Assembly: GCF_013249045.1 (NCBI RefSeq)
Contig: NZ_JABRWP010000006.1
Span: 1-64,000, forward strand
DNA: 64,000 nt
Reading direction: 5' to 3'
Origin: Winogradskyella eckloniae
GTDB taxonomy: Bacteria > Bacteroidota > Bacteroidia > Flavobacteriales > Flavobacteriaceae
The notes beneath the pieces were generated by a model that saw only the letters and a program-made list of their open reading frames with translations, was not told the DNA's origin and did not search any database. Of the stretch, positions 13,300-50,914 are shown one piece after another. Position numbers and translations under genes: made by a program. Every line of letters starts with the position of its first letter. Position 1 is the stretch's first letter.

Positions 13300-13413
13300 G
13301 CGTTCTAGGTGATTTGTTATTGTCCTCGTTTTTAAAATAAAACACAAATATATTAAAACGAAAGTAAATGAAGGGTTTTGTTTCGGTATTTTTTATTTTT
13401 AAGTAAATTTTAA

Positions 13414-13433
13414 TTTCGTTTTGTTTCATTTTG
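13414..13433. promoter_or_regulatory. Tandem 10-base direct repeat, candidate GlpR operator
   Basis: TTTCGTTTTG is followed immediately by TTTCATTTTG (consensus TTTCRTTTTG). An inverted copy of the core, AAAACGAAA, lies at 13356-13364 towards the regulator gene. The repeats lie just upstream of the predicted glpD -7 box, a position that fits repression of glpD, and perhaps of glpR itself. Confidence 0.5.
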
Positions 13434-13445
13434 TATTATATTTTA

Positions 13446-13453
13446 TATATTTG
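13446..13453 (+). promoter_or_regulatory. Predicted -7 box of glpD
   Basis: TATATTTG matches TAnnTTTG exactly, 29 bases before the glpD start codon. The nearest upstream TTTG (13420-13423) is 22 bases away, slightly long for the -33 element. Confidence 0.5.
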
Positions 13454-13482
13454 AAACATAATTGAAATAAATACAATATATT

Positions 13483-15048: not shown

Positions 15049-15102
15049 ACTAATGTTTACTGAACCTCTACATTCAGCAAACTAATTAATAAACAACAAA
15101 CT

Positions 15103-16602
15103 ATGGGGAAATATATTTTATCCTTAGATCAAGGTACAACTAGTTCTAGAGCTATTGTTTTTGATAAAAAAGGCAATATTGTTTCTAGTGCTCAAAAAGA
15201 ATTCACGCAATATTTTCCAAAACCAGGTTGGGTAGAGCATGATCCCAAAGAAATTTGGTCTACACAGGCAGGAGTAGCGGCAGAGGCAATAGCTAATAAA
15301 GGGTTAGATGCGGAGCAGATTGCTGCTATTGGCATTACTAATCAGCGCGAAACCGTTGTGGTTTGGGATAGAAATACAGGAGAACCTATTTATAATGCCA
15401 TCGTTTGGCAAGATAAACGAACTTCAGGTTATTGTGATCAACTAAAAAATGAAGGAAAAGCGGCCGTCATAAAAGAAAAAACTGGGCTCGTTGTAGATTC
15501 TTATTTTTCTGGGACAAAAGTGAAGTGGATTTTAGATAATGTCAATGGTGCTAGAGCTAAGGCAGAAGCTGGAGATTTAGTTTTAGGAACGATTGATTGT
15601 TGGTTGGTTTGGAACTTTACTAAAGGTAAACAACATGTTACAGATGTCACAAATGCATCGAGAACGTTACTGTTTAATATCAATACAATGCAGTGGGATG
15701 ATGAGCTTTTAGAGTTGCTGACAATACCCAAAAGTATGTTGCCAGAAGTAAAAGCTTCAAGTGAAGTATATGGTCATACCAATTCTACGTTTTATGATAC
15801 ACATATTCCAATTTCTGGAATAGCTGGAGACCAACAGTCGGCATTATTTGGACAAATGTGTACAAAGCCAGGTATGGTTAAAAATACCTACGGAACAGGT
15901 TGTTTTATGCTTATGAATATTGGTGAACATCCAATTGCATCTAAGAATAATTTATTGACTACTGTGGCATGGAAAATTAACGGAAAAACAACATACGCTT
16001 TAGAAGGCAGTGTTTTTATCGCAGGCGCCGTAGTGCAATGGTTACGAGATAGTTTAAAAATTATCAGAAATTCTTCAGACGTGGAAGCATTGGCCTCATC
16101 CGTAAAGAGTACCGATGGTGTATATTTTGTGCCAGCATTTGCAGGTCTAGGTGCACCACATTGGAATCAACATGCACAAGGGACTATGTTTGGGTTAACA
16201 AGAGGGAGTACAGATGCGCATATCGCTAGAGCATCTCTAGAGTCTATAGCTTTTCAAACTATGGATATATTAAAGGCTATGGAAGCTGATTCTGGTTTGT
16301 CAATAAAAGAATTACGTGTTGATGGAGGAGCAACCATTAATAATATGCTTATGCAATTTCAGTCAGATGTTTTAGATACAGTAACGGTGAGACCAAAGGT
16401 GGTAGAGACTACAGCAATGGGTGCTGCATTTTTAGCAGGTCTAGCAGTTGGCTATTGGGAGAATCCTGAAGAAATACAAGATATATGGCAAACCGATAAA
16501 ATATTTAATCCTACAACGGATAGAGCGGATATTGAAGCCAATATAAAAGGCTGGTATAAGGCAATCGATGCATTAGAATATTGGACAACATTAACTCATT
16601 AA
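15103..16602 (+). CDS. glpK: Glycerol kinase
   Basis: It phosphorylates glycerol to glycerol-3-phosphate with ATP. The 499 residues match the family length. The FGGY N-domain has [13 protein letters not shown] (about 8-20), and [14 protein letters not shown] and [14 protein letters not shown] are diagnostic of glycerol kinase. The C-domain carries the nucleotide-binding [15 protein letters not shown] segment. It lies between glpD and glpF with a 10-base gap to glpF, so the three are one transcription unit. Confidence 0.96.
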
Positions 16603-16612
16603 TCCTAGACTT

Positions 16613-17341
16613 ATGACACCATTTATAGCAGAAATTATAGGTACAGCAATATTGATTTTACTTGGAGGAGGCGTTGTAGCTAATGTGGTTCTTAATAAAA
16701 CTATTGGAAATAACAGCGGTTGGATTGTTATTACTACAGGTTGGGCATTGGCCGTTTATGTAGCTGTTGTTATTGCTGGTCCTTATAGTGGAGCACATAT
16801 TAATCCGGCTGTTACAGTAGCTGTTGCTATTGCAGGTAAATTTCCTTGGGCAGATGTACCATTGTATATTGTGGCTCAAATGATAGGCGCAATGATTGGT
16901 GCATTTTTTGTGTGGGCGTTGTATAAAAATCATTTTGATGATACGGAAGATGCGGATTCAAAAAAGGCGGTTTTCTGTACGTCACCTGCGATTAGACATA
17001 CGTTTTCAAACTTTTTTAGTGAAATGTTAGGCACGTTTGTACTATTGTTTACAATATTCTTTTTTACAGATGCAAGTATTAACGACACGGAAACCGTCAT
17101 TGGTTTGGGGTCGTTAGGTGCATTGCCAGTAACCTTTTTAGTTTGGTCTATTGGTTTGTCTTTAGGAGGTACAACGGGTTATGCTATAAATCCGGCTAGA
17201 GATTTAGGGCCAAGGATAATGCATGCTATTTTGCCTATAAAAAATAAGGCAAAGAGTGATTGGGCTTATGCTTGGATTCCTGTTTTAGGGCCTTTGGTTG
17301 GTGGTGCGCTCGCTGCAATTTTAATGCTTGCATTACAATAG
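16613..17341 (+). CDS. glpF: Glycerol uptake facilitator (aquaglyceroporin)
   Basis: A 242-residue inner-membrane channel of the MIP family for passive glycerol entry. Both selectivity loops are intact: NPA at 64-66 (AHINPAVTVA) and NPA at 193-195 followed by Arg and Asp (NPARDLGPR). That Asp is typical of glycerol-conducting members rather than water channels. Six membrane segments are visible. It is the last gene of the glpDKF unit, followed by a terminator-like hairpin. Confidence 0.95.
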   Translation: MTPFIAEIIGTAILILLGGGVVANVVLNKTIGNNSGWIVITTGWALAVYVAVVIAGPYSGAHINPAVTVAVAIAGKFPWADVPLYIVAQMIGAMIGAFFVWALYKNHFDDTEDADSKKAVFCTSPAIRHTFSNFFSEMLGTFVLLFTIFFFTDASINDTETVIGLGSLGALPVTFLVWSIGLSLGGTTGYAINPARDLGPRIMHAILPIKNKAKSDWAYAWIPVLGPLVGGALAAILMLALQ

Positions 17342-17369
17342 TATACGGTTTTATTTAATTTATTTTAGA

Positions 17370-17404
17370 AATGTCAATTCGATTAGGGTTGGCATTTTGT
17401 TTGT
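17370..17404 (+). terminator. Terminator after glpF
   Basis: AATGTCAA (17370-17377) pairs with TTGGCATT (17389-17396) with one G-U pair, and the T-rich stretch TTGTTTGTT follows. The T-run is interrupted, so some readthrough into the regulator gene is possible. Confidence 0.55.
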
Positions 17405-17455
17405 TCGTATACTAAAAACTATATTTACATGAGTAGAATTATTTTAATGAGACAA

Positions 17456-20221
17456 ATGAAGACTTATTCGTTTTTTATTTTATGGTTTTTGTGTTTGATG
17501 ACTTTTGGGCAAGAATTGCCTCCAATTGATACCTTTACAACATCAGATTATAAAGGTGAGAATCAGAATTGGATGATTACACAAAATGCTGATAAGTACA
17601 TTTATGTGGCAAACAATTTAGGCTTATTAGAATATAATGGTACAGATTGGAAGCCTTATCGATCGCCAAATCACACTATTTTAAGAGCTGTTAAAGCTAT
17701 AGATAATAGAATATATTCAGGTTGTTACGAGGAATTTGGATACTGGGAACGACATGAGTTTGGTCATTTAGTGTATGAATCGCTTATACCTAAGTTAGGT
17801 GATAAGATTTTAAGTGATGATCAGATTTGGGATATCATAGATTATGAAGATTGGGTGTTGTTTCAGGCTGGTCATGCCTTGTATTTCTTTGATAAGGTGT
17901 CAGAAAAATTTAAAACTATAAGCTCAAAAAATATAATATATAAAGTCTTTAATGTAAATGATAAAATTTATTATCACGTGGCAAATGAAGGGCTTTATGT
18001 GCTTGAAGAAGGGAAGCCTAAGTTAATCATAGATCACGAAATTGTTATTGAAGACCGCGTAATTGATGTGTTTTATAAACATGAAAAACTAATTATTCTT
18101 ACTAGAAATTCAGGTTTTTTTCAATATTTAGAAGGAGAATTTAAAGTGTGGGACGTTACCTCTAATAAACGCTTAAAAGAACTTAATGTTTTTAGTAGTA
18201 TTCAATTAAGAGATGGCAGTTTTGTATTTGGTACTATTTCTAATGGTCTTATAAAAATTAAAGAGAACGGAGTTGTTGATTACGAAATAAATCAAAAGAA
18301 AGGTTTAGCAAATAATACTGTGCTTACTCTTTTTGAGGATTTTGAAAACAATGTATGGACAGGATTAGATAATGGAATTAACTGTATTAATGTTAACTCT
18401 TCAATAAAAACCTTTATAGACTATAATGGTAGTATTGGTACTGTCTACACAACCTTGATTTTTAATAATTACCTCTATGTAGGGACAAATCAAGGACTGT
18501 TTTTTAGGTCATTAGAATCAAAAAGTCAAGATTTTAAAATTGTAAAAGGTACAGCTGGCCAAGTTTGGAGTTTATATAATGATAATGATAAGAACTTATT
18601 TTGTGGTCATCACTTAGGTACATTTTTAATTGATGAGGGGAAAGCTAATAGCATAAGCTCAGTTTTAGGTGCCTGGAATTTTAAAACCGTTCCAAATCGA
18701 GAAAATCTTTTGCTTCAAGGCAATTATGATGGGTTGTATGTGCTTCAAAAAGAAGATGGAAAATGGCACTTGCGAAATAAAATAGAAGGTTTTAAGAATT
18801 CATCACGTTTTTTTGAAATTAATGACAATAATCAAATATTAGTTAATCATGAATATAAAGGGGTTTTTAGAATTCAATTAGATAACACGTTACATAAAGT
18901 AATAGATATTAAACGCCAATCAGAATTAGATTTAGGGAAGAATTCAGGGTTAATTTCTTATAAGAATAACATACTTTATACCTCAGAAGATGGTGTTTTT
19001 GATTATATCAAAACCGAAGAGAAATTTAAAAAGAACATTGATTTATCCGAGAAATTTTCGCCCTATAAATCCGTAAAAATGGTTGTGGACCAAAAAGGTA
19101 AGTTGTGGTTGTTTTCAGAAGATAATATTAGTTATGTCAGTTATGACAATTTAACGAATAAGCCAGATGTTGTGACCATATCAATACCAGCTAATTTACG
19201 AAAAGGCGTTTTAGGGTTTGAGAATATTCAGCATATTGAAAAAGGGAAATATGTATTAGGTACCTCAAATGGATACTTAACTCTAGATTTATCTCAGTTA
19301 AAACATGAGTCTAATTATTATATTCATCTAAATGCTATAACAGTATCTTCTTTAAATGATGAAACTCAAGATTTACCATTAAATGAAGAGCGAGAATTTA
19401 ACTATGATTACGGCACATTACATTTTAATTGTTCAGTGCCAGAATATGATAAATTTTTAGAAGTTAATTATCAGTATAGATTACATGGTAAAATGAATAA
19501 TTGGAGTGCTTGGGTAGAAACGCCAAATATTCAGTTCGAAAATCTAACGTTTGGAAATTATAAGTTAGAAGTAAGAGGTAAAGTTGGTAATCAACTCACC
19601 GAAAATGTAGTGGCATATCAATTTAAAGTAAATAGACCTTGGTATTTCTCTAATGTGGCCATTTTTGTATATGTATTAATGCTTTTGGTAATTGGATTGT
19701 TAATTCATAGAGCCTATAAATTTTATTACGAAAGGATTTTGAGGCTAGAGCATATAAAGAGTGAACGTGCATTTATTCAAATTAAAAACGAAAAGTTAAA
19801 TCAAGACATTGAAAGTAAAAATAGAGAGTTGGCCATTTCTACAATGAGTATCATTAAGAAGAATGAGTTACTTCGAAAAATTAAAAAAGAATTAAAGGTT
19901 ACAAAAAATAAAGAAGACATCAGTAGTGCAATTAAGTTGATAGATACCAACTTAAATAACAATAAGGACTGGAATTTCTTTAAGCAAGCTTTTAATAATG
20001 CAGATAAGGATTTTATGGATAAAATAAAAGCGGCACATCCAGACCTTACGCCAAACGATTTAAGGTTTTGTGCTTACTTAAGATTAAACCTGTCTTCAAA
20101 AGAAATGGCACCATTGCTTAACATTTCTACAAAAAGTGTCGAAACAAAACGTTATCGTTTACGCAAAAGATTACAATTACATCATGATGATAGTCTTGTT
20201 AACTATATCTTAAAATTCTAG
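17456..20221 (+). CDS. Membrane sensor/regulator: beta-propeller, Y_Y_Y domain, LuxR-like helix-turn-helix
   Basis: A 921-residue one-protein regulator. I start it at the ATG at 17456 because MKTYSFFILWFLCLMTFGQ is a good signal peptide; a longer frame from 17429 is less likely. Propeller-type repeats fill about 30-640, a Y_Y_Y domain about 645-735, one membrane helix about 745-765, then a coiled-coil-like linker and a C-terminal helix-turn-helix (NDLRFCAYLRLNLSSKEMAPLLNISTKSVETKRYRLRKRL) of the LuxR type. The periplasmic part probably senses a ligand. There is no histidine kinase domain, so unlike the hybrid two-component protein at 36.7 kb it would act directly from the membrane. Its position next to glpDKF and SusCD suggests control of this locus. 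Confidence 0.82.
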   Translation: MKTYSFFILWFLCLMTFGQELPPIDTFTTSDYKGENQNWMITQNADKYIYVANNLGLLEYNGTDWKPYRSPNHTILRAVKAIDNRIYSGCYEEFGYWERHEFGHLVYESLIPKLGDKILSDDQIWDIIDYEDWVLFQAGHALYFFDKVSEKFKTISSKNIIYKVFNVNDKIYYHVANEGLYVLEEGKPKLIIDHEIVIEDRVIDVFYKHEKLIILTRNSGFFQYLEGEFKVWDVTSNKRLKELNVFSSIQLRDGSFVFGTISNGLIKIKENGVVDYEINQKKGLANNTVLTLFEDFENNVWTGLDNGINCINVNSSIKTFIDYNGSIGTVYTTLIFNNYLYVGTNQGLFFRSLESKSQDFKIVKGTAGQVWSLYNDNDKNLFCGHHLGTFLIDEGKANSISSVLGAWNFKTVPNRENLLLQGNYDGLYVLQKEDGKWHLRNKIEGFKNSSRFFEINDNNQILVNHEYKGVFRIQLDNTLHKVIDIKRQSELDLGKNSGLISYKNNILYTSEDGVFDYIKTEEKFKKNIDLSEKFSPYKSVKMVVDQKGKLWLFSEDNISYVSYDNLTNKPDVVTISIPANLRKGVLGFENIQHIEKGKYVLGTSNGYLTLDLSQLKHESNYYIHLNAITVSSLNDETQDLPLNEEREFNYDYGTLHFNCSVPEYDKFLEVNYQYRLHGKMNNWSAWVETPNIQFENLTFGNYKLEVRGKVGNQLTENVVAYQFKVNRPWYFSNVAIFVYVLMLLVIGLLIHRAYKFYYERILRLEHIKSERAFIQIKNEKLNQDIESKNRELAISTMSIIKKNELLRKIKKELKVTKNKEDISSAIKLIDTNLNNNKDWNFFKQAFNNADKDFMDKIKAAHPDLTPNDLRFCAYLRLNLSSKEMAPLLNISTKSVETKRYRLRKRLQLHHDDSLVNYILKF

Positions 20222-20522
20222 CACCTTGACAATAACATTAAATACCTAGACTTTACCACTACAAACGTCCATTTGGGCTATAAATCAAGGTTTTATTGAA
20301 AAATTTGCAATTTTTAAAAATCCAATGTTTACAGTATGTTGACGAGGATTTTTGAAGTAAAATGTTGTTAAAATTTGCGATGTTCGTTTTTTATCGAGGT
20401 ATAAATTATCATATTAACATATTCTTAAGATTAAATTTACAATATCTTAAATTTTGAAGATCTGAATAGAGTTTCGGTATTTTCTAATTTTGGTAACTAA
20501 ATAATTAATCAAAACAATATTT
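20222..20522. other. 301-base intergenic region before susC
   Basis: No gene is seen. TAATTTTG (20485-20492) matches the -7 box 30 bases before the susC start, but no -33 element lies at the right spacing. GTTCG (20382-20386) resembles a half-site of the E. coli GlpR operator; a similar GTTCG occurs at 17403-17407 upstream of the regulator gene. These half-sites are short and may be chance. Confidence 0.45.
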
Positions 20523-23500
20523 ATGAAATTAAAATTTCAAAGATCAAGAATTGAAATATTCTTTTTTGTCTTTTTATTGTGTAGTTCATTTGCTGTTTTA
20601 GCACAGACTACAATAAAAGGAAAAGTGGTTTCTGGAGCAGATAATATGCCTTTACCAGGTGCATCTGTGATAGAAAAAGGTACGACTAACGGAACGCAAA
20701 CAGATTTTGATGGTAGATTTACTTTAGAAGTGTCTAGTGATGCTTCAGTAATAACTGTATCTTATGTTGGTTTTAAAAGTCAAGATGTTAACGTAACTGA
20801 TGGAGAAATGACAATCGCACTACAAGATGATAATTCATTATCTGAGGTGGTTGTTGTTGGTTATGGTACACAAAAGAAAAGTGATGTTGTTAACGCAGTA
20901 GCAACAACTAATTTAGAAAAAGCAATATTAACGCCCACTTCAGATGTTAATGAAATGCTACGTGGTAGAATCGCTGGTTTACAAGTAGATGTAGGAGGCG
21001 GAACATTAAGACCAGGTGGTACTTCAGATATTATCTTTAGAGGTCAAGGATCTATTGAAGGTGCGGTAAGTGCTATCTATGTTGTAGATGGTATTATTAG
21101 AGATGGTGGTATAGAAGATATTGATTCTGATGATATTGAGTCTATTGAATTCCTTAAAGATGCATCAGCACAAGCCATTTATGGATCTAGAGGAGCAAAT
21201 GGTGTCGTATTAATTACAACCAAGCGTGGTAAAGCTGGTAAAATAAGTGTGAGTTATCATGGATTTGTCTCTACTAAATCCATAGAACGTAATTTTGATG
21301 TATATAGTGGACAAGAATTTGCACAATTAAGACGTGAGGCCATTAGAACCACAAGAGCAGATGATAGTTACGCGGATGACGAGCTCGATAATGTGTTTAC
21401 GCCAATTGAATTAGATAATTTAGCGAACAATCGTTTTGTAGATTGGGAAGAAGAGTTAATGAAAACGGGTTCTGTAAATAGCCAAGCCATTAGTGTTAGT
21501 GGTGGTACAGATTTAACTAAAGTATTTGGTAGTATTAATTACTTTAAAGAAAATGGATTGATTCCAACATCAAGCTACGAAAGAAAAACATTACGTTTAA
21601 ACGTAGATCAAAAAATTAGCGATAAGTTTTCTGTAAATTTTGATATAAATATTTTAAATGATGACACAGAAAGAGCAGCCAATGTTAATGTAATTACAAC
21701 ATCACCTTTAGGTAGTGCTTATAATGAAGATGGTAGTATAATGCGTTTTCCTAGTGGTGAAGAAGGGTCTGCGGTAAATCCATTATGGAATTTAAATGAA
21801 CAAGATCACGATGAAAAAGGCAATGATTTTGTTATTAATGTTACACCTAAGTGGCAAATCACAAAAGATTTACAGTATCAATTAAAAGCCAATTTAACAA
21901 GAAGAACCTCAGAAAGAGGACAGTACCAATCTTCATTAAGTAGTGCTGGTGATGATGTTAGAGGTATTGCAAGAATAGATAATCAGTTAAGAGAGTCTTA
22001 TTTAATAGAAAACATTTTAACGTATGATAAAAATTTTGGAGATGACCATAAGTTTAATTTAACTTTAGTGCAATCGTCTCAAGAAAATGAATATTCAAGA
22101 ACGTTTACAGAAGGGCAAGGGTTTTCAAACGAAGATTTAGGCTATAATGGTATTGCTAGTGCTATTGGTAATGTTACTGTAGAGCGTGATGGAAATAAAT
22201 TTAGATATTTAGGCTATATGGCGAGAGCACGTTATACGTTATATGATAAATATAGTTTTGAAGGCACATTAAGAGCAGATGGCGCTTCATTAAATGGAGA
22301 AGGAAATAAATGGAGTTATAATCCTGCTGGTTCTTTTGCTTGGAAAATACACAGAGAAAGTTTTATGGAAGATGCTAAGGCGGTTCAAGAATTAAAGTTT
22401 AGAGCAAGTTATGGTTCTTTAGTTAACGATTTAGGACGTGCGTATACATCGCTATTTACAGCAGATGCCCAACAATATATTTTTGATAGTGAAACAGCAT
22501 CTGGGTTTTCTCCATCTACAATATTGCCAAATCCAGATTTAAAATTCGAAAGAATCACAACATTAAACTTAGGTCTAGATTTTTCTTTATTTGAGCGTGT
22601 ATTATCAGGAAATATAAACTGGTACGATGCCAGAACAAATGACTTATTGTTAAGAAGAGGTGTGCCATCTACAACAGGATATACGTCTACGTTCTTTAAT
22701 GCAGGTGAAATGCAGAATACAGGTATAGAACTTAGTTTAACCGCTAATATTATCAATAATGATGATCTAAAATGGTCGGTATCTACAAATTGGTCTAATA
22801 ACCGAAACAAAATTTTAGAACTATACAATGATGGAAATGGAGATGCTATAACAGATGATACTACGTACAATTATTATGTAGGGCAGCCTGTAGGTGTTAT
22901 ATATCAATATGCATTTGATGGTATTTGGCAAGAAGGAGATGATTTTGCTAATGCGCCACAAGCCAATCCAGATTCTGCGCTTACTCAAACAGATTTAGAG
23001 CCTGGTGATATTAAAATTAAAGATATTAACGGTGTTGATGATGAAGGAAATATTATACCTGGTCCTGATGGTAAAATTACCCAAGAAGATCGTGTGTTTA
23101 TAGATCCTAATCCAGATTTCTTCGGATCGTTATCTACCACTTTAGAGTATAAAGGTTTCGATTTACTTTTAGATTTCTATGCCGTTGAAGGCGCAACAAA
23201 AGTCAACCCGTTTTTAAATACATATAATAATGGTGGTACTTTAAGAGGTGATATAAATGGTGTAAAAGTAGATTATTATACACCAGAAAATCCTTCAAAC
23301 TCTTTTCCAAGACCAAATGCAGATTCTGCAGATCCATATTTAAATGCATTAGCAGTTAAAGATGCTTCTTATATTAGATTAAGAACTGTAAGTCTTGGGT
23401 ATTCATTATCAGAAAAAGTAACAGATAAATTAAATTTTGATCAAATAAGATTTTACGTAACTGCAACAAATGTATTTACAGATACTGATTATATTGGTTA

Positions 23501-23597
23501 TAGTCCAGAAGTAAACATTAGATCTACATTTTCTAACGCAGACACAGGTTATCCTGATGCAAGATCGTTCACATTTGGTGTTAGAGTTAAATTTTAA
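20523..23597 (+). CDS. SusC-family TonB-dependent outer-membrane transporter
   Basis: A 1024-residue SusC/RagA protein, the usual length. A signal peptide (about 1-27) precedes a carboxypeptidase-like beta-sandwich (about 30-105), then LSEVVVVGYGTQKK, the family's signature before the plug, then plug and barrel ending in FTFGVRVKF. It pairs with the SusD gene 19 bases downstream; together they form a lidded transporter for oligomers. In this locus the neighbours are glycerol genes and a glycerophosphodiesterase, with no glycoside hydrolase. A glycerol- or glycerophosphate-containing substrate is therefore the leading guess. Confidence 0.94.
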   Translation: MKLKFQRSRIEIFFFVFLLCSSFAVLAQTTIKGKVVSGADNMPLPGASVIEKGTTNGTQTDFDGRFTLEVSSDASVITVSYVGFKSQDVNVTDGEMTIALQDDNSLSEVVVVGYGTQKKSDVVNAVATTNLEKAILTPTSDVNEMLRGRIAGLQVDVGGGTLRPGGTSDIIFRGQGSIEGAVSAIYVVDGIIRDGGIEDIDSDDIESIEFLKDASAQAIYGSRGANGVVLITTKRGKAGKISVSYHGFVSTKSIERNFDVYSGQEFAQLRREAIRTTRADDSYADDELDNVFTPIELDNLANNRFVDWEEELMKTGSVNSQAISVSGGTDLTKVFGSINYFKENGLIPTSSYERKTLRLNVDQKISDKFSVNFDINILNDDTERAANVNVITTSPLGSAYNEDGSIMRFPSGEEGSAVNPLWNLNEQDHDEKGNDFVINVTPKWQITKDLQYQLKANLTRRTSERGQYQSSLSSAGDDVRGIARIDNQLRESYLIENILTYDKNFGDDHKFNLTLVQSSQENEYSRTFTEGQGFSNEDLGYNGIASAIGNVTVERDGNKFRYLGYMARARYTLYDKYSFEGTLRADGASLNGEGNKWSYNPAGSFAWKIHRESFMEDAKAVQELKFRASYGSLVNDLGRAYTSLFTADAQQYIFDSETASGFSPSTILPNPDLKFERITTLNLGLDFSLFERVLSGNINWYDARTNDLLLRRGVPSTTGYTSTFFNAGEMQNTGIELSLTANIINNDDLKWSVSTNWSNNRNKILELYNDGNGDAITDDTTYNYYVGQPVGVIYQYAFDGIWQEGDDFANAPQANPDSALTQTDLEPGDIKIKDINGVDDEGNIIPGPDGKITQEDRVFIDPNPDFFGSLSTTLEYKGFDLLLDFYAVEGATKVNPFLNTYNNGGTLRGDINGVKVDYYTPENPSNSFPRPNADSADPYLNALAVKDASYIRLRTVSLGYSLSEKVTDKLNFDQIRFYVTATNVFTDTDYIGYSPEVNIRSTFSNADTGYPDARSFTFGVRVKF

Positions 23598-23616
23598 TTA
23601 AAAAAATAATAAGATT

Positions 23617-25230
23617 ATGAAAACGAAGTTTTTTTATACAAAATTAAAGGGAAGCATATTGCTAACCATGGCGCTTATTATAAGTGTAACTTCTTGTGAA
23701 GATTACTTAGAAGAACAGCCAAGTACATTAATTGATTCTGATTATATATTTACTACAGAAGAAGGATTAAAATCTGGAGTTGTAAGTTTATATAAATTTG
23801 AACGCGATCGTTACGATAACGGAACAGAAGATTTTATGGGATCCGTTCTCATGTCATCTCGAAGTGATTTGGCCTTTTCTAGATCTGGTTATACTGGGTT
23901 AATGGGAAGATACGAAAGAGGAATATCTTCAGTAGATTATGGATCAACGTTGGCGTCTACATTGTTTTGGAAGCATTTCTATAACATGACGAATAAAGCA
24001 ACGGCAATCATTAATGCAGCAGACGCTATTGATGGTGTCGATGAAGATGTTAGAAAAAAAGTACTAGCTGAAGCCAAGTATTTTAGAGCACATTCTTATT
24101 TCTATTTATACAGAATGTATAACAATATTTTTGTAACTACAGAAACTGTTACTGTTGAAAATGCATTTGATGTTGTTAACGATAGTTCAACAGAAGAAGA
24201 AATATTTGCACTAATCAATAGTGACCTTGATTATGCAATAGAAAACTTAGATTGGATAGATACATTTGGACGTGTCACTAAAGGTACGGCAAAACACGTT
24301 AAGGCAAAAGTTGCAATGTGGCAAGGTGATTGGACAGAGGCAAAAACGCAAGCCTTAGATGTCATAGAAGGACCAGATTCTCCTCACAGTTTAGTGAGTT
24401 CTACCGCAGACGTTTTTGCTGGAGATAGAAATAATTCAGAATCTTTATTTGTAATCCAGTCGCAAGATGATGTATTAGGAGGTGGATCTACAACGATGAT
24501 GAATGCAAATTATGTCGCTCAGTTTTTCCAGATATCTGGTGTAGATTACAATAATGAGCAAGGAGGAAGAGGATTTGCTAGAATTTTACCAAATTTATAT
24601 TTATTAAATCTTTTAGCAGAAGATCCTAACGATACAAGAGATGATAATACATATTTTAGATTAAAATTTTATTACACATCTGGAGATAGAATAGGAGAGG
24701 AAGTTGATAACTATGAACCGATAACGGATTTAAATAATCCAAGTTCTACGTATGCATCTTATTACCAAAGAATGCATCCATGTTGTATAAAATTTGCGCA
24801 AGAAGATGGTAATGAAGCGTCTTATTTAATTAGAGGCAATATTACCGTATATAGATTAGCTGAGACGTATTTAATAGCGGCTGAGGCTATAATGCGATCT
24901 TCAGGAGACCCATTACCATATATTAATGCCGTACGTGAGAGAGCTGGTGCTGCACCAGTTACAAGTGTAACGCAACAAACTATTTTAGATGAGCGCGCAA
25001 GAGAACTTGCTTTTGAAGGTCAAAGATGGTTTACTTTAAAAAGAATGGGACAAGATGTTATTGATTTTCAAATCACAAATTATGCAGGTGATGGTGAATA
25101 CTTCCCTGCGAACCTTGGTTCTAAAGACCCAAGAGAAAATTGGCAATCACATTTCATTAATTGGCCAATTGCACAAAGAGATTTAGATTTATTAGGGCCA
25201 GATTACCCGCAGAATCTAGGTTATGAATAA
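23617..25230 (+). CDS. SusD/RagB-family surface lipoprotein
   Basis: A 537-residue SusD-like protein that closes over the SusC barrel and captures the substrate. The signal ends in VTSC, giving a lipidated Cys near residue 27. The N-terminal DYLEEQPSTLID segment is typical. The TPR-like helices include KYFRAHSYFYLYRMYNN, and the C-terminal region has the family's RGNITVYRLAETYLIAAEA and ERARELAFEGQRWFTLKR motifs. It is followed by a strong terminator, so the SusCD pair ends its own transcript. Confidence 0.94.
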   Translation: MKTKFFYTKLKGSILLTMALIISVTSCEDYLEEQPSTLIDSDYIFTTEEGLKSGVVSLYKFERDRYDNGTEDFMGSVLMSSRSDLAFSRSGYTGLMGRYERGISSVDYGSTLASTLFWKHFYNMTNKATAIINAADAIDGVDEDVRKKVLAEAKYFRAHSYFYLYRMYNNIFVTTETVTVENAFDVVNDSSTEEEIFALINSDLDYAIENLDWIDTFGRVTKGTAKHVKAKVAMWQGDWTEAKTQALDVIEGPDSPHSLVSSTADVFAGDRNNSESLFVIQSQDDVLGGGSTTMMNANYVAQFFQISGVDYNNEQGGRGFARILPNLYLLNLLAEDPNDTRDDNTYFRLKFYYTSGDRIGEEVDNYEPITDLNNPSSTYASYYQRMHPCCIKFAQEDGNEASYLIRGNITVYRLAETYLIAAEAIMRSSGDPLPYINAVRERAGAAPVTSVTQQTILDERARELAFEGQRWFTLKRMGQDVIDFQITNYAGDGEYFPANLGSKDPRENWQSHFINWPIAQRDLDLLGPDYPQNLGYE

Positions 25231-25249
25231 TTATTATTAGTTTTAAATT

Positions 25250-25275
25250 GGGCAAGTTCTCTTGCCCTTTTTTTT
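25250..25275 (+). terminator. Terminator after susD
   Basis: GGGCAAG-ttct-CTTGCCC (25250-25267) is followed by eight T. The downstream phosphodiesterase ATG (25322) lies beyond it, so that gene depends on readthrough or a promoter not recognised here. Confidence 0.92.
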
Positions 25276-25321
25276 CTTTTTTAAAGAGGGTTTTACTCTA
25301 TTTATTAAAACAAAATTCCAA

Positions 25322-26122
25322 ATGAAATATTTATTAATTGTGTTTATATGTATAGTTTTTTCAGCATGTAACACAGCATCTACAGAACCAGAAATTGAAT
25401 TTGCTAATAATCCTGTTATTGCCCATAGAGGTGCTTGGAAAACTAATGGCTTACCAAAAAATTCTGTAGCAGCCTTAAAGGAAGCTATTCGATTAAAATG
25501 TACAGGTTCGGAGTTTGATGTTCGTATGACCGCAGATAGTGTATTAATTGTAACCCATGATGCAGATTTCGCAGGTTTGAATATCGAAACATCTACCTAT
25601 GAAACACTAGCAAAACATAAATTACCTAATGGTGAAACGCTACCAACCTTAAAGGATTTTATAATTGCAGGAATGACAGATAATATATCAACAGGTTTGG
25701 TTTGCGAAATAAAACCGTCTAAAACTGAAGGACGAAATATCTTAATGGCAGAAAAAGCTGTGGCTTTAGTAAAAGAACTAAAGGCAGAATCTTATATCTC
25801 TTATTATATCAGTTTTAGTTATGAACTTATAAAACATATTAAACAAATTGATCCCAATTCTAAGGTGTTATATTTAGATGGATCTAAAACACCAGACGTA
25901 CTAAAAACAGATAATATTACTGGGTTAGATTATTTTGTCTACAAGCTAAAAGAAAAACCAGAATGGATTTCCGAAGCTAAAACCCTAGGTTTAAAGCTTA
26001 ATGCTTGGACAGCTAATAAACAAGAAGATATAGACTGGTTAATAACGCACAATTTCGATTACATTACAACAGATGAGCCAGAACTGGCTTTTAAAAGACT
26101 AGAAGAAGCTGCAAATCATTAA
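25322..26122 (+). CDS. Glycerophosphodiester phosphodiesterase, probable lipoprotein
   Basis: It hydrolyses glycerophosphodiesters to glycerol-3-phosphate and an alcohol. The start at 25322 is chosen because it gives a lipoprotein signal (MKYLLIVFICIVFSAC, Cys16); a longer frame begins inside the susD terminator and can be dismissed. The GDPD barrel shows the catalytic set: HRGAW, then GSEFDVRMT with the Glu/Asp pair, and VTHDADF, ending in LNAWTANKQEDIDWL and TTDEPEL. Placed behind SusCD and the glp genes, it would release glycerol-3-phosphate in the periplasm or at the surface for GlpD. Confidence 0.92.
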   Translation: MKYLLIVFICIVFSACNTASTEPEIEFANNPVIAHRGAWKTNGLPKNSVAALKEAIRLKCTGSEFDVRMTADSVLIVTHDADFAGLNIETSTYETLAKHKLPNGETLPTLKDFIIAGMTDNISTGLVCEIKPSKTEGRNILMAEKAVALVKELKAESYISYYISFSYELIKHIKQIDPNSKVLYLDGSKTPDVLKTDNITGLDYFVYKLKEKPEWISEAKTLGLKLNAWTANKQEDIDWLITHNFDYITTDEPELAFKRLEEAANH

Positions 26123-43055: not shown

Positions 43056-44522
43056 TTACCAAGTTGATAAGGCAGCCCTTACCCATGTGTTAGCAGCTGT
43101 ACAAATATAAATATAAGTTGCCGTTACTCTAATCTCACCTACAGTTCCGGTATCTGAAGCACTGGCAGGTGCCGTATTTAATGCAGATAGTTTATACTGC
43201 GTAGCTTCAGTTGTACCTTCTATTTCTAATGCATGTGTGGATGCCGTTTTAGCAATGCCAACTCTACCTGACGTAAAATCGCCATAAATTAATGGTGTTG
43301 CGCTACTTTCATTTTGAATCACTAAGGTATTAGAAACAAGATCCCAAGCACCATTGAAACCAGCTCTATTGCCAATAAAAACGTTAGAACTCCCCTTGTT
43401 ATCTCGGCCAGCTTGTCTTCCTAAAAACACGTTCAAATCGCCTTCTAAATAACGACCAGATTGTTGTCCTACCAAAACATTATTACTGCCGTCTAATTCG
43501 TTTCCAGATAAATAGCCTATTATAACATTAGATGATGATAGATTATCATTACTAGCTATTAATTCTCCTGCATAAGAACCTATTGCTGTATTATTTCCTG
43601 ATATATTTTGTTTAAGTGCGCCATAACCAAATGCCGTATTATTGCTACTATCAAAATTATTGGTTAACGCTTCGGTTCCGACAGCGGTATTATTATCTCC
43701 AGAGACATTAGTGGTCAAGGCTAAATTTCCTAAAGCTACATTTTCGTTTCCAGTGGTGTTATTACTCAAGGCAGCATTTCCTATTGCAGAGTTGGCACTT
43801 CCGCCACTATTATTAGAAACAGGATTATTATTGCCTAAGGCATCTGCACCAAATGCGGTATTGTGGTTGGCAATGGTGTTGTTTTCTAAAGCTCTTTTTC
43901 CAAATGCAGAGTTGCCTTGACCTGTGGTGTTTTCTCGCATTGCAACATAGCCAAAGGCAGAGTTGTTATTACCACTATTTCCAGAGATAGTAGTATTGTT
44001 TTCAAGTGATGCATAGCCAAAAGCAGAATTATGATCAGCGTTTGTATTGGCATTTAAAGCTCTATAGCCTATGCCTATATTTCTTCGGTCATTGCCATCA
44101 TCGTTAGCACCAGCGTCTATACCAATAAAAATAGAAGACCCGTCTTCTGACCCATCTACATCAGATTTTGCGTCCGATAGATCATTTAATTTTTCAATAC
44201 TAGACAGTCGTGTCCATCCATTCACTTGGTCCCAATGATAAAAACCTTTAGTGTTTAAACCTACTGTTGTAGTAAGGTATACCAGCATTCCATTTTGGGC
44301 TGCTGTAGGTGGTGTTGATGGAAAGTCATCAATTCTTGGGATTAATAAACCGTCTTCATTTGTTGGTGCGGCTTGATTAGATGCAGTTATATCTAATGTA
44401 GCTTGTGGTAATGTGTTTCCTATACCAATTTGAGCATACGAAAAAGTTGAAAAAAGCAATATGATATAAAATACAATATTCCTATAATACATTCCTTGTT
44501 GTTTAATTATGTTATTTTTCAT
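43056..44522 (-). CDS. Surface protein with YadA-head-like repeats
   Basis: A 488-residue exported protein. The signal peptide ends SYAQ near residue 31; an internal ATG at 44492 would give a shorter signal and is also possible. From about residue 145 to 390 it has many short repeats of the form N-x-A-[FILV]-G-x-x-A-L, for example NTAVGTEALTNN and NTAFGYGALKQN. These are the left-handed beta-roll units of YadA-type adhesin heads, here without the YadA membrane anchor. The C-terminus resembles the IEGTTEATQYKLSALN segments of phage-tail-like Bacteroidota surface proteins. It lies 13 bases downstream of the T9SS protein on the same strand. A binding or structural role at the surface is inferred. 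Confidence 0.78.
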   Translation of the reverse strand: MKNNIIKQQGMYYRNIVFYIILLFSTFSYAQIGIGNTLPQATLDITASNQAAPTNEDGLLIPRIDDFPSTPPTAAQNGMLVYLTTTVGLNTKGFYHWDQVNGWTRLSSIEKLNDLSDAKSDVDGSEDGSSIFIGIDAGANDDGNDRRNIGIGYRALNANTNADHNSAFGYASLENNTTISGNSGNNNSAFGYVAMRENTTGQGNSAFGKRALENNTIANHNTAFGADALGNNNPVSNNSGGSANSAIGNAALSNNTTGNENVALGNLALTTNVSGDNNTAVGTEALTNNFDSSNNTAFGYGALKQNISGNNTAIGSYAGELIASNDNLSSSNVIIGYLSGNELDGSNNVLVGQQSGRYLEGDLNVFLGRQAGRDNKGSSNVFIGNRAGFNGAWDLVSNTLVIQNESSATPLIYGDFTSGRVGIAKTASTHALEIEGTTEATQYKLSALNTAPASASDTGTVGEIRVTATYIYICTAANTWVRAALSTW

Positions 44523-44535: not shown

Positions 44536-46461
44536 TTATTTCTTTATTATTTTAAAAGCCTGTACGTCATTATTGGATGAATATGCTTTTACAAAGTAGA
44601 CACCTTCCTTTAATGAAGACACGTTAAAATAGGGTTCGTTTTGATTAAATTTTAAAATTTGTTGCCCTTCAATATTATATATGATTGCTGAAGAAATGTT
44701 TTTTGTTAGTCTAAAGGAATCTTTTACTGGGTTAGGATATAAGACGATTTGATTAAAATCAGTTTCAGAATCTATACTTAGCGTTTCACCAACTAAATAA
44801 GCGCCTTCTGGTCGGGTATAGGGAATAAAATCTGGCTTAGGTGACTGAACCATTCTATTGTTTATTTCTTGCATTATAGCCATTTCATCAGCGGTGATAT
44901 AACCATCGGTAATGGTAGTACTCCATGTCATAGTGGCTCCTGGATCTGTAAACGTTCTTACAAAACGATATGCCTGCTCAATTTCAAATACTAAATCTGC
45001 ACTAGCTACACTCCATTGTTGTCGTATTGGAACAAAATAGTGTTTTAGCGCTTGCTTAACTCCATTATAAGAAGACCAAGGGTTTTCTGTAACTAAAGGA
45101 AAAGAGAATTCTTCGTAAGCCCATGAGTTTGGAGGCGCGCCTTGACCTAATGGAGTTGGGTGTCCGGCTGTGAAATCCGTGTAAGGGTCATTTGCTTCTA
45201 AAAAGAACACTCTATAGTCCGTTGGGTCTTCGTCTGTTGTAGAATCGGAATCAACATATATGTTATTTCCATCCTCATCTTTTATAAATGATTTAGTTAG
45301 GTTTGTAGCAATAGCGGCTTCAGGATGTACGTCCCTAATCATGGCAATAAAAGCATCTAAGTCACCGGGTAAATTTGAAACATTATCAATCCAATACCCA
45401 TCAACTAGTCCGCTAAAACGTTCAAAAAAACCTCTTGCTAAGGTTTGCCATGCTAAGCCTTCATCTCCCGCAAAATTAGTGTTATAATAATTCTCCCATC
45501 CTGTAATGATTCCAGCTTCAGTAGCATCAACATTTCCTTGAATAACCGATGGTCCAGCACCATTTACATACAGTATTACTTTTTTTCCTGCTGTTTTAAA
45601 AACATTAATGACATCTAATATTATTTGTTCATTTTCTATTGTAGGTACCATGCCTGGATGAATTTCGTTAGCAATATCTACGTAAGCATTATCTCTTAAA
45701 GTATAAAAGTAGCCGTGCGCAGGATGTGTAAAATTGGTGATTATATGTCCAACACTAGGTAAATTATCTACTATTTGTTGTGCACCAATTACCCAATCAT
45801 AGTGATCTGTATTGTCTAACCTAATACCTCCATGAAGATTAAATCGCATTCCCCAAGATCCTGACAAAAATTGAGCTTTAGGTATGGTTTGCTCAGAATA
45901 TCCAGAAATAGTGTCAAAATAATATGTTGAAGTTAACGCCGTAGTATCTTCAGAAGCTAACTCAATTTGTATTTGGTCATAGCCTCCTTCTAAAAGTACA
46001 TTCGCTGGGATGGATTCGTTGTTAAAATCAAAGGTAAAAGACGCCCAAGTCTCACCTTCTGAAAATAGTAATTCTTCAAAAATAGCATCAGAATCTCCAA
46101 GATTTGAGTTCCTTAAATATAGTCTAATAGAAGTATTGGTTGCATTAAATTCTGAAGTTGCTAAAGATGTATATGCTTTAAGTGAAATAGTATATGATGT
46201 TAAATCTGTAATGGGATTTGTGAGATCAAAACTTATTGTAGGTTCAGGATTCCCATCTCTTACAAATTTAGAAACGGTAGCGTTAGAATTAATAGTATTG
46301 ATTTCTGGATTGGTTTCATTGGTGGTAAATACGCCAGCTGAAACGCTGTTAAAACTAATATGCTCAGTACTACTTGCATTCTCATACCAAACTTGTTGCG
46401 AAGAGATGGGAATTATGTAAATAAATGTAAATAGAATTAATAAATTAATTTTTTTAACCAT
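44536..46461 (-). CDS. T9SS-exported putative TIM-barrel hydrolase, unclassified
   Basis: A 641-residue secreted protein. The start at 46461 (MVKKINLLILFTFIYI) gives a signal peptide; a frame to 46551 adds 30 unlikely residues. After a beta-sandwich of about 185 residues, which is CBM-like, comes a barrel-like domain (about 195-560) with VILYVNGAGPSV, then DGYWIDNVSNLPGD, a hydrophobic strand ending in an acidic residue as in glycosidase barrels, then AAIATNL. A C-terminal sorting domain (YPNPVKDSF...GVYFVKAYSS) directs it through the type IX system. I cannot place it in a known glycoside hydrolase family. Being beside sulfatases in a fucose locus, an endo-acting fucan hydrolase is the best guess, not a demonstrated one. 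Confidence 0.75.
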   Translation of the reverse strand: MVKKINLLILFTFIYIIPISSQQVWYENASSTEHISFNSVSAGVFTTNETNPEINTINSNATVSKFVRDGNPEPTISFDLTNPITDLTSYTISLKAYTSLATSEFNATNTSIRLYLRNSNLGDSDAIFEELLFSEGETWASFTFDFNNESIPANVLLEGGYDQIQIELASEDTTALTSTYYFDTISGYSEQTIPKAQFLSGSWGMRFNLHGGIRLDNTDHYDWVIGAQQIVDNLPSVGHIITNFTHPAHGYFYTLRDNAYVDIANEIHPGMVPTIENEQIILDVINVFKTAGKKVILYVNGAGPSVIQGNVDATEAGIITGWENYYNTNFAGDEGLAWQTLARGFFERFSGLVDGYWIDNVSNLPGDLDAFIAMIRDVHPEAAIATNLTKSFIKDEDGNNIYVDSDSTTDEDPTDYRVFFLEANDPYTDFTAGHPTPLGQGAPPNSWAYEEFSFPLVTENPWSSYNGVKQALKHYFVPIRQQWSVASADLVFEIEQAYRFVRTFTDPGATMTWSTTITDGYITADEMAIMQEINNRMVQSPKPDFIPYTRPEGAYLVGETLSIDSETDFNQIVLYPNPVKDSFRLTKNISSAIIYNIEGQQILKFNQNEPYFNVSSLKEGVYFVKAYSSNNDVQAFKIIKK

Positions 46462-46803: not shown

Positions 46804-48714
46804 ATGAAGTACAGAAATTATGTGATAGGTTTTATAGCTTTAGCTGTGTGTTTTAATTGTAATTCCAAAAAGTTAGATGTAGTTACTCAAAGTAAAAAAG
46901 ATACAGGTAGACCAGAACCTAACGTTTTGCTTTTACTTACGGATGATTTGGGTTGGCAAGATGTTAAAGCCTATGACATTGATGAGCCTTCTCCTTATGA
47001 AACACCAAATATTGACGCCTTAGCTAAAAAAGGAATTCAGTTTTGGCAAGCTTATTCTCCAGCACCTACTTGTGCACCTAGTCGATGTGCTATTATGAGT
47101 GGCAATCATCCTGCTAGAGCACAAAAGACACATGTTGTAGGTGGTGCTCCTCCAACAGTTAGTGGTCATAAAAATGTACAACGCATTATGGATCCTTGGT
47201 ATAGTGGTCGTATGCCAGAAAATGAAATAACATTAGCAAGAGTATTACAACAAAATGGTTATACAACAGGACATGCAGGGAAATGGCATATGGCTATAAA
47301 TCATCACGCCTTTCCTCAGCCCGAAGATCAAGGATTTGATGTTACTACCTCAGATCGAGGAGCAACAAGTCCACAAAAACCACATCGTTTAACAGATTTT
47401 GCCACTACAAATGCCACAGACCCTTACCGTCTAGATGATAATGGCTTTCCTTATCATCAAAACAACCAAGATGCTTTAAATTTTTTAAAAGAAAATAAAC
47501 AAGATCCATTTTTCTTGTATTATGCAACGTTTTTAGTCCATGCGCCTATACATACTAGAAGTAAAGCACTTTTAGAAAAATATTGTAAAAAATTAGGGGT
47601 GCCATTTCCAACAGACCCAGAACATTGGGAGGTAGAAGGGCAAAATAATCCGTATTACTGTGCTATGGTAGAAATGCTAGATTACTACGTTGGGCAGGTT
47701 TTTGATTATTTAGAAGCAACCGATGATCCGCGTTGGCCAGGGCATAAGTTAATTGAAAACACGTATATTATTTTTACTTCGGATAATGGCGGTATGGAAA
47801 AGGCACATGGCGATATTGTTACTGATAATTACCCATTAGACAAAGGGAAAATTAATGCTAAAGAGGGTGGAACTAGAGTGCCTCTTATAATTTCAGGACC
47901 TGGAATTAAGTCTGGAGTAGCATCTGAGGTTGTTGTAAATGGGCTTGATTTTTACCCAACGATTCTATCCTTGTTAGGTATAGAAAAGCCAAAAGACAAA
48001 CTTTTGGATGGCGCTGATTTATCAGACCTGTTATTAATAGATCCAACCGATTCTAAGTTAGTAAAGGATAAAAATGGTAACACCCGATCTGAGATGATGT
48101 GGCATTTTCCACATGCTTCTTTTCAAAGTACTTTGCGAGTAGGGGATTATAAGTTGATAAGAAATTATGACTATAAATCGAATGCTGATACACCAGAATT
48201 TGAATTATATCAATTATACAGTACGCGTAATGGTAAAGTGAAACGTGTAGATATCGAAGAGGCTCATAATTTAGCAACAACTTATCCGGAGAAAACAAAG
48301 GAGATGAATGACCAATTAACTTCAATATTAACCGAAATGGAGGCAAGTTATCCGTATTACAATCCTTTTTATAAAAATGACTTAGAGCATAAAGAAACAG
48401 TACCTACGGTATTATCAGATTCAAAAGAAAATAATCAAGTTGTTTTTAAGTTCAAAGAAAATGGTGCTGCGGTGGTAAAGGCAGATTTAATTTATACCAC
48501 TAATGGAGGACATCGATATGAAGAATGGTTTAAGACTGATGCTACCGTAAATTCTAATGGCACCATAACTGCAATCTTACCGAAAAGTACAACGCACTAT
48601 ATTATTAACTTAGTAGATTCAAATAATTTCTTAATAAGTTATCCCGAAATTCCTGCGAATAAAACACTTAGGATGAATAAACAGAAGTACTCTGAATATG
48701 CATTGAATAATTAA
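46804..48714 (+). CDS. Lipoprotein sulfatase of the formylglycine type
   Basis: A 636-residue type I sulfatase. The signal ends near NC (Cys19), so it is probably lipidated. The modification site is CAPSR with Cys90; LTDDLGWQD holds metal-binding Asp residues, and GHAGKWHM and TSDNGG are conserved active-site blocks. After the catalytic domain (about 40-520) comes a C-terminal beta-rich module (about 540-625) with YEEWFKTDATVNSNGTI and VDSNNFLIS. The same module occurs in the secreted sulfatase at 54.9-57.4 kb, so the two are paralogues placed in different compartments. It needs a formylglycine-generating or anSME maturase, which is not in the window. Confidence 0.92.
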   Translation: MKYRNYVIGFIALAVCFNCNSKKLDVVTQSKKDTGRPEPNVLLLLTDDLGWQDVKAYDIDEPSPYETPNIDALAKKGIQFWQAYSPAPTCAPSRCAIMSGNHPARAQKTHVVGGAPPTVSGHKNVQRIMDPWYSGRMPENEITLARVLQQNGYTTGHAGKWHMAINHHAFPQPEDQGFDVTTSDRGATSPQKPHRLTDFATTNATDPYRLDDNGFPYHQNNQDALNFLKENKQDPFFLYYATFLVHAPIHTRSKALLEKYCKKLGVPFPTDPEHWEVEGQNNPYYCAMVEMLDYYVGQVFDYLEATDDPRWPGHKLIENTYIIFTSDNGGMEKAHGDIVTDNYPLDKGKINAKEGGTRVPLIISGPGIKSGVASEVVVNGLDFYPTILSLLGIEKPKDKLLDGADLSDLLLIDPTDSKLVKDKNGNTRSEMMWHFPHASFQSTLRVGDYKLIRNYDYKSNADTPEFELYQLYSTRNGKVKRVDIEEAHNLATTYPEKTKEMNDQLTSILTEMEASYPYYNPFYKNDLEHKETVPTVLSDSKENNQVVFKFKENGAAVVKADLIYTTNGGHRYEEWFKTDATVNSNGTITAILPKSTTHYIINLVDSNNFLISYPEIPANKTLRMNKQKYSEYALNN

Positions 48715-48769: not shown

Positions 48770-50914
48770 ATGGGACAAAAGTTATGTAATAATTTAAAAG
48801 TGGTCGTTAACCATTTATTGTTTTTTGTTTGTTGGCTGTCATATGGTCAAGTTTCTAATTTATGGGTTGAACTCAACCCTAATGCAGGTCATTCCACTCA
48901 GTTAAATGAGGATATAAGTATTAACAACGGAACTATAATTCAAAATTTCACGTCGAGTAACGTCGGTTGCTTTGTTCTTAACGATGCTAATGAATTAGTG
49001 TATTCAGTTACCTATATCGAAGATGATTTAGACAATGATGGTGATAATGAACAAGTAGCTTTCGATGTCGTAATTAAAGCCTATACCGATGCCACGTACA
49101 CTTACAGTGCAGAACCAAACGCTTCTTCTGTTACTAATTATGGAACCCAAACTGACGTCACTAATATAGATAATTCTTGGGGAGTTATGAGCGATTTTGA
49201 TATTGACCCAGGCGAATCATTAGTTTTTGAAATCGATAATTTAATGATCAATGGATTAAACTCTAATTTTACTTATGCTATAGGTTTTTCGGCAATTGAT
49301 TTGGTAGAAACAAATGGTGGTAGAGACCATACTATGATTTTTGGCTTAGGTAACGGTTTGGAATCTCTCGAAATTGATAGTAATCAAAGTTATATGTTTT
49401 CTGAGTTAAGTAATTTATTTTCGGTTACAGGTACAGGAAGTCTTACAACGGCACCGCGCGAAATTGCTATTAAAGCTTTAAAATTAAAGTTAGAAATAAA
49501 CGGGCCAGATAATACCATTTGGGATGTAACGGATTATTCTGTTTTTGAAAAAGGCCCAGATTTTTATCATGATTACCCTGAACAAACGGTATTACTTCCA
49601 ACTTTACCCAACTTTTCTTGGAATAAAATTCCTAGATGGGTAGCCGTTAGAAGTAATAATGCACTATCAGAAGAAGCGGTTACAAGTATAGCTGAGAATT
49701 ATCAGTTAGTTATGTTAGAAAAAGCAAATTTTCAAGGTTTTGAATATATTGAAGATGGTATCGAAAATTTAGCTTCAAGGATTAAAACACAGAACCCTAA
49801 TCTAACAACTCTATTTTATTACAACACACGTATCAACTACTTTGGTTATGAAGCCAATGAAGAATATAATAGCAATGTTGCTAGTTGGAGCACATATTTA
49901 GATGGTGAGATATATCTTTTTAAAGATCTTTATTATTGGTATAATCATGATGTTGAAGCTATGCGAAATTGGTGGATTAATACTTGTGTTAATATGGCAA
50001 ATTTAGATGTTATTGATGGCGTGTTTGTAGATAAAATTACAAACCCAAATGAAAATGGGGATTTGTATAACACCAACGGAGCATTGGCAAATAATTATGT
50101 GACGATGTTAAGTGACCTTAATGATCAGTTGCCATCCGATAAGCTTATTGTAGGAAATACTTTAAGGAATGAGCGCGAAGGAGGAAATAGAGCGCTGATG
50201 GAAATTATGGATGGTTCTTATATAGAGCGTTGGGATTTTCCGAGTACAGACCAATCGCGTGCAGATGCAATAGCCGTGTCTATACAATTAATGAGGGAGG
50301 CATTACAAAAAGGGAAAATGATTAATTTTCAATCAAGTCCAAGTTATTCCGCAATTGAAGAAGAACCTGCAGATCCCGATGAATTATTGGCTTATACGAT
50401 AGATAACGTTAAATTTCCGTTGGCCGTATTTTTACTTATCGTTGAAGAAAATGCTTATTTTAGTTATAAAACAGGCGTAAATGCTGCAAGTAATAGTTCT
50501 GACTTATGGGATACTAGTTTTATAGACGAGTTTAGTTATTTTTTGGGGGAGCCACTAAGCGATCCTATTAAAAATGGATATATATACGAACGCTCTTTCG
50601 AAAATTTAGATCTATGGGTAAATATAGAAACCAAGGAAACTGTTTTTAATTGGATAGATGAGACCGCATTATCTATCAGCGATATAGATATTAAGGATAC
50701 GGTATATATTTTTCCTAATCCAGTTAGCCATACGCTTAGTATTTCAAAAAGAATAAATATGGCTACTATATATAATATGTATGGTCAAAAGGTTTTGTCG
50801 TTTTCTGAGTATAAAAAAGAATATGACGTATCTCAATTACAAGATGGTATTTATATTATTACGATCAAATTACAAAATGGCGAAAAGCATTCCATTCGTT
50901 TTGTAAAAAAATAA
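48770..50914 (+). CDS. T9SS-exported putative TIM-barrel hydrolase, second unclassified type
   Basis: A 714-residue secreted protein following the sulfatase by 55 bases. Signal peptide about 1-26. A beta-sandwich domain of about 225 residues includes DDLDNDGDNEQ, a likely calcium site. A barrel-like domain (about 270-610) has RWVAVRSN, LTTLFYYNTRINYFGY and DVIDGVFVDKITNPNENGD, with an acidic residue at the end of a beta strand, then DKLIVGNTLRN. The C-terminal sorting domain is FPNPVSHTL...DGIYIITIK. The layout parallels the protein at 44.5-46.5 kb (sandwich, barrel, sorting domain), but the sequences differ clearly. It has the look of a glycoside hydrolase without a known family; the substrate is inferred from the locus. 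Confidence 0.74.
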   Translation: MGQKLCNNLKVVVNHLLFFVCWLSYGQVSNLWVELNPNAGHSTQLNEDISINNGTIIQNFTSSNVGCFVLNDANELVYSVTYIEDDLDNDGDNEQVAFDVVIKAYTDATYTYSAEPNASSVTNYGTQTDVTNIDNSWGVMSDFDIDPGESLVFEIDNLMINGLNSNFTYAIGFSAIDLVETNGGRDHTMIFGLGNGLESLEIDSNQSYMFSELSNLFSVTGTGSLTTAPREIAIKALKLKLEINGPDNTIWDVTDYSVFEKGPDFYHDYPEQTVLLPTLPNFSWNKIPRWVAVRSNNALSEEAVTSIAENYQLVMLEKANFQGFEYIEDGIENLASRIKTQNPNLTTLFYYNTRINYFGYEANEEYNSNVASWSTYLDGEIYLFKDLYYWYNHDVEAMRNWWINTCVNMANLDVIDGVFVDKITNPNENGDLYNTNGALANNYVTMLSDLNDQLPSDKLIVGNTLRNEREGGNRALMEIMDGSYIERWDFPSTDQSRADAIAVSIQLMREALQKGKMINFQSSPSYSAIEEEPADPDELLAYTIDNVKFPLAVFLLIVEENAYFSYKTGVNAASNSSDLWDTSFIDEFSYFLGEPLSDPIKNGYIYERSFENLDLWVNIETKETVFNWIDETALSISDIDIKDTVYIFPNPVSHTLSISKRINMATIYNMYGQKVLSFSEYKKEYDVSQLQDGIYIITIKLQNGEKHSIRFVKK

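Follow-up and report, generated by a model that had tools for sequence, protein, structure and literature searches.

The window analyzed here is a stretch of 64,000 nucleotides from Winogradskyella eckloniae, and it carries the gene for protein A together with the genes and domains listed in Table 1. On the minus strand, an open frame of 641 codons begins with the ATG at 46461. The list of open reading frames puts the start of protein A at an upstream ATG, 46551; the alignment of a homologue from W. vidalii begins at the methionine of 46461. Relatives of protein A are present in 46 loci, which rules out a chance frame. A search of protein A against its own genome gave 12 matches, one of which was full-length and was protein A itself, while the other 11 were to the sorting tail.

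Table 1. Features of the window and of related loci, with the evidence for each
Feature	Position	Strand	Basis or remark
Fourth sulfatase	11037		Edge of glycerol-type cluster
SusC/SusD pair	20523, 23617		Within glycerol-type cluster
MFS transporter	28190		Pfam
Aldehyde dehydrogenase	29585		Pfam
Class II aldolase	32465		Pfam
Fucose isomerase	33305		Pfam
FGGY kinase	35155		Pfam
Hybrid two-component sensor	36752		Pfam
Protein A gene, predicted GH107 endo-fucanase	44536..46461	-	641 aa; ORF list, sequence and fold matches
T9SS type A sorting domain, residues 574-641	44539..44742	-	Pfam PF18962 and TIGR04183
GH107 catalytic (beta/alpha)8 barrel, residues 195-560	44782..45879	-	PDB sequence search, profile, model, Foldseek
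H434, equivalent of Mef1 H270 and P5AFcnA H276 (acid/base)	45160..45162	-	Alignment and available text of PMC10619423
D359, equivalent of Mef1 D187 and the P5AFcnA nucleophile Asp	45385..45387	-	Alignment and available text of PMC10619423
N-terminal CBM-like beta-sandwich module (N-module), residues 20-194	45880..46404	-	Homologous copies, profile search, own model, Foldseek
Probable Sec signal peptide, residues 1-21	46399..46461	-	By eye; pLDDT low at residues 1-22
Sulfatase next to protein A	46804..48714	+	Pfam; homologues 76-83% identical in 12/46 relative loci
GHL15/GH168-type protein, second putative endo-fucanase	48770..50914	+	Pfam, PDB search
Further sulfatases	54883, 57556		Pfam
GH95	59172		Pfam
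Protein with divergent N-module copy	L011:4237-5655		
Protein with divergent N-module copy	L012:4176-5594		
Protein with divergent N-module copy	L038:3194-4552		

The AlphaFold model of protein A, built from 44 sequences, had a mean pLDDT of 84.1 and a pTM of 0.64, and comprised a beta-sandwich (residues ~23-187), a barrel (~203-537), and a small C-terminal beta domain. The initial annotation, made from the sequence alone, had described a beta-sandwich, a barrel-like domain with DGYWIDN at the end of a strand, and a T9SS sorting domain, and had named a model lacking the barrel as a reason to abandon its proposal. Both the beta-sandwich and the barrel were present in the model, the strand at residues 355-359 terminated at D359 of DGYWIDN, and the sorting tail was matched by PF18962 (Pfam, E 1e-10, residues 574-638) and TIGR04183 (NCBIfam, E 1.2e-9).

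Protein A had also been placed among fucan sulfatases; sulfatases do lie near it, three of them close by and a fourth further off (Table 1), and fucan is their candidate substrate. The fourth sulfatase and the SusC/SusD pair, being among glycerol-type genes, need not belong to the fucoidan region. The glycerol-type cluster spans 11037-26122 and holds a DeoR regulator, an FAD oxidoreductase, an FGGY kinase, an MIP channel, the SusC/SusD pair, and a GDPD, with the sulfatase at its edge. The protein at 48770-50914 matched GHL15 (PF14885, E 3.6e-27) and also PDB entries of endo-1,3-fucanases, among them 9joc (E 1.5e-36), a type placed under GH168 in the available part of PMC11943901. It is of the secreted type with a predicted T9SS tail, and the earlier remark that it was the other endo-acting candidate in the window fits this assignment. 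A homologue of it (E 1e-20, half coverage) was seen in only 1 of the 46 relative loci with flanks of up to 8 kb (L042, 67% identity), so this gene lies outside the conserved neighborhood seen in those loci. Directly downstream of protein A, the minus strand at 43056-44522 encodes a 488-amino-acid protein with NSAFG/NTAFG-type repeats; it has homologues in 9 of the 46 loci, and neither Pfam nor NCBIfam matched it at E up to 1.

Protein A is a member of GH107 by sequence, fold, and catalytic residues. A phmmer search of PDB sequences returned P5AFcnA of Psychromonas (6m8n, E 9.4e-136) and Mef1 of Muricauda eckloniae (8bpd, E 4.6e-134), both of which are GH107 according to papers or PDB titles. 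The barrel was 55% identical to P5AFcnA over 365 columns and 53% identical to Mef1 over 381 columns, and a 44-row profile searched against the PDB gave E values of 2.4e-201 for 8bpd and 3.9e-177 for 6m8n. Foldseek aligned the protein A model to 6m8n with a TM of 0.95 by target length (rmsd 1.6) and to 8bpd with a TM of 0.93. Among the best 50 matches listed, the first five were all GH107, namely these two structures and three entries of the founder MfFcnA (E 4.5e-14 to 1.9e-13), and GH29-like fucosidases followed; the comparison with GH29 and GH107 folds suggested in the initial annotation thus ranks GH107 first. MfFcnA was not found in the PDB by sequence, either with the single sequence (E up to 10) or with the 44-row profile (E up to 1), and its structural match to the model at ranks 3-5 was a multi-domain alignment with a TM of 0.42/0.39 and an rmsd of 19.5. 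The link to the founder is therefore based on fold rank and motifs, and GH107 membership is based on P5AFcnA, Mef1, and the motifs.

According to the available text of PMC10619423, GH107 enzymes possess a nucleophile Asp, an acid/base His, Tyr, Asn, and Trp in the -1 subsite, and a conserved Pro; the equivalents in protein A are D359, H434, Y298, N387, W483, and P478, respectively. Relatives were aligned in 44 rows, a selection from those found, since catalytic-domain matches were more numerous. D359, H434, Y298, P478, and W483 were invariant (44/44), and N387 was Asn in 35 rows and Q, S, or T in 9. Position 300, an Asn in protein A, was Asn in 27 of the 44 rows. The Ca1 motif VDSD was also present, with D406 in all 44 rows and D404 in 41. 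Both GH107 motifs quoted in the accessible passages of PMC9147238 were found in protein A, RxxxxxDxxxxD as R348-D354-D359 and DxxxGH as D429-H434.

The initial annotation could match protein A to no named family and had proposed a new glycoside hydrolase family with endo-fucanase activity as a hypothesis. Its observation was confirmed, and the endo-fucanase part is supported by the GH107-like sequence, the modeled fold, and the aligned catalytic residues; the family part was wrong. The barrel looked nameless because Pfam and NCBIfam give it no match at E up to 1, with only the sorting-tail models matching protein A, and a GH107 family was likewise absent from the Pfam results for four GH107 relatives scanned. 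This silence speaks for a new family; however, it is consistent with a statement in the available text of PMC9147238 (2022) that the GH107 D1 domain was not yet included in domain prediction programs. Moreover, the PDB search did return named enzymes, and these two solved GH107 structures are 53-55% identical to the barrel, superpose on it nearly completely, and have the same catalytic and -1 subsite residues. A new family was rejected on these PDB sequence and fold matches, and we regard its probability as negligible. The same silence means that GH107 genes look unknown wherever those libraries alone are used. Protein A could alternatively be a GH29-like exo-fucosidase with a barrel resembling that of endo-fucanases, given that GH29 and GH29-like structures come next after GH107 in the fold list. 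Their best E value was 7.6e-12, however, compared to 6.6e-50 for the closest GH107 structures; the Pfam search of protein A at E up to 1 gave no hit to PF01120 (Alpha_L_fucos, GH29), and the GH107 histidine occupies the acid/base position, making an exo-acting enzyme of this kind highly improbable. The fucose-catabolism genes, sulfatases, and GH95 of the region were counted as context for the GH107 endo-fucanase explanation.

The linkage cleaved by such an enzyme was at first expected to be alpha-1,4, since Mef1 is reported to be specific for that linkage. Two results favor a Mef1-like GH107 endo-fucanase specific for alpha-1,4 links: Mef1 is 53% identical to protein A, and the protein A clade joined the Mef1 clade (SH-aLRT 94) in a quick, midpoint-rooted tree without bootstrap (56 rows, including two PDB rows), with P5AFcnA placed outside and flagged as a long branch. 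This expectation was given up for alpha-1,3 on the basis of PMC11240576, the available part of which reports cleavage of a synthetic alpha-1,3 sulfated fucan both by P5AFcnA and by a GH107 enzyme of W. vidalii (WP_179351272, 59% identical to P5AFcnA). A search of the W. vidalii genome with protein A found two full-length GH107 genes, one product being 59.2% identical to P5AFcnA (locus L038) and the other 43.4%, and from the matching identity of 59% we infer that the L038 protein is the tested one. Over its full length, the L038 protein shares 66% identity with protein A (34% of residues differ), with values of 72% for the barrel and 60% for the N-module, and it has the same domain order, including the N-module and the T9SS tail. 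Homologues of window proteins near its gene include the sulfatase (80%), the HTCS (80%), an outer-membrane protein (75%), the repeat protein (55%), and a small T9SS protein (39%). In contrast to the window, its flanks as fetched lack a homologue of the GH168-type gene and carry a 453-amino-acid protein with a divergent copy of the N-module. P5AFcnA, a single catalytic domain without an N-module, shares the catalytic and -1 residues with protein A, including the Asn at position 300; Mef1, also a single domain, shares the catalytic pair but has Ala where protein A has N300. Taken together, the presumed identity of the L038 protein with the tested enzyme, the shared neighborhood, and the 66% identity indicate that protein A is probably an alpha-1,3 endo-fucanase. 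With both the W. vidalii homologue and P5AFcnA (55%) reported as alpha-1,3 cutters, alpha-1,4 specificity is unlikely.

Protein A is thus very probably a secreted, T9SS-sorted GH107 endo-fucanase, most likely cleaving alpha-1,3 links within sulfated fucan chains, and with the new-family claim removed the gene gains a predicted name, mechanism, and linkage preference. The protein would be exported and sorted through T9SS. By analogy with its homologues, it would then act within sulfated fucan chains, breaking alpha-1,3 links by a retaining mechanism, with D359 as the putative nucleophile and H434 as the putative acid/base, and this endo-cleavage would release sulfated oligosaccharides. The N-module, if it acts as a carbohydrate-binding module, might keep the enzyme on the polysaccharide, which is a weaker inference. 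The sulfatases, GH95, and fucose pathway encoded in the window could complete the breakdown.

The N-module on its own (residues 20-194) had no PDB sequence match at E up to 10 in a single-sequence search, and neither Pfam nor NCBIfam assigned the window copy to a family. Of 38 copies of the module, 7 gave a match to Pfam CBM_4_9 (best E 0.0018), and 17 other Pfam families matched 1-3 copies each, which looks like chance. A profile of the 38 copies found 8qx6 in the PDB over part of the module (E 1.2e-5), and the view that the module was unrelated to anything was dropped on this match. When the module was modeled separately (mean pLDDT 92.5), the best 50 Foldseek matches listed included CBM4, 8qx6 (rank 4, "Novel laminarin-binding CBM X584," E 5.2e-6), CBM16, CBM29, CBM11, and other CBMs, with E values of 3e-6 to 9e-5. 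The same list contained the EphA7 ligand-binding domain, agarase domains, a phage tailspike, and a flagellar sheath protein; because these are not CBMs, the fold by itself is no proof of sugar binding. The profile and model matches suggest that the N-module is distantly related to 8qx6. Both are beta-sandwiches, but they are 22% identical with a TM of 0.61/0.64, and 8qx6 is a laminarin binder whereas close copies of the N-module are mainly on GH107 enzymes. In open-licence PMC literature on 8QX6, laminarin-binding CBMs, and N-terminal CBMs in GH107, we recognized no description of the module; the available text of PMC11345257 describes laminarin-binding domains and does not give the N-module by name.

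Apart from the two PDB rows, the 56 rows of the tree were 54 catalytic domains encoded in the window or the loci, some in frames cut by contig ends. The N-module was present on 30 of these and absent from 24, in a scattered pattern that needs 11 state changes on the GH107 tree, and in four enzymes (L029, L032, L041, and L043) it flanks the barrel on both sides. It was also found on two AXE1-like esterase proteins (L054:1501-4134 and L039:3236-5887), and a protein at L039:2115-2951 consists of the module and a sorting tail with no other strong Pfam match. Proteins of 451-473 amino acids with one or two divergent copies lie near the GH107 gene in seven loci (L011, L012, L013, L014, L016, L038, and L042); the one in L011 has a sorting tail, and these proteins are possible candidates for secreted binding proteins. 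In a wide search, 123 of 397 family genomes had a match at E 1e-5. Among the matches listed, copies with E <1e-40 were found in six genomes, including that of the window, and the others were weaker and distant. Among 35 scanned proteins that carry a divergent or distant copy, Pfam found GH16 in 4, PKD in 3, SGBP_B_XBD in 2, and a sorting tail in 12. With such far copies present, some of them in proteins of the GH16 or PKD type, it is harder to argue that the fold superfamily as a whole is specific for fucan.

The partner proteins, the CBM-like fold, and the copies on other proteins make a predicted carbohydrate-binding role of the N-module likely; fucoidan as its ligand is a guess from those partners. 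We tentatively suggest, at somewhat less than even chances, that the N-module founds an as yet unassigned family of fucoidan-binding modules whose members are exchanged between GH107 enzymes and the esterase-like proteins encoded in fucoidan loci, and are also secreted as binding proteins lacking a recognized catalytic domain. Fucoidan, a polysaccharide of brown seaweeds, is a slowly degraded carbon store, and the N-module offers a lead on how bacteria may hold on to it.

Fucoidan loci in some Winogradskyella are mentioned in the available part of PMC9723794, and GH107 is not mentioned in that part. The genome of W. eckloniae had three matches to PF14885, one of them in the window, and three to PF01120. 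The other five matches (three to GH29, two to GHL15) are on the contig of the window, at ~90-106 kb, in a stretch (L089, ~88-107 kb) ~25-42 kb past the window, and the fucoidan region may therefore extend further.
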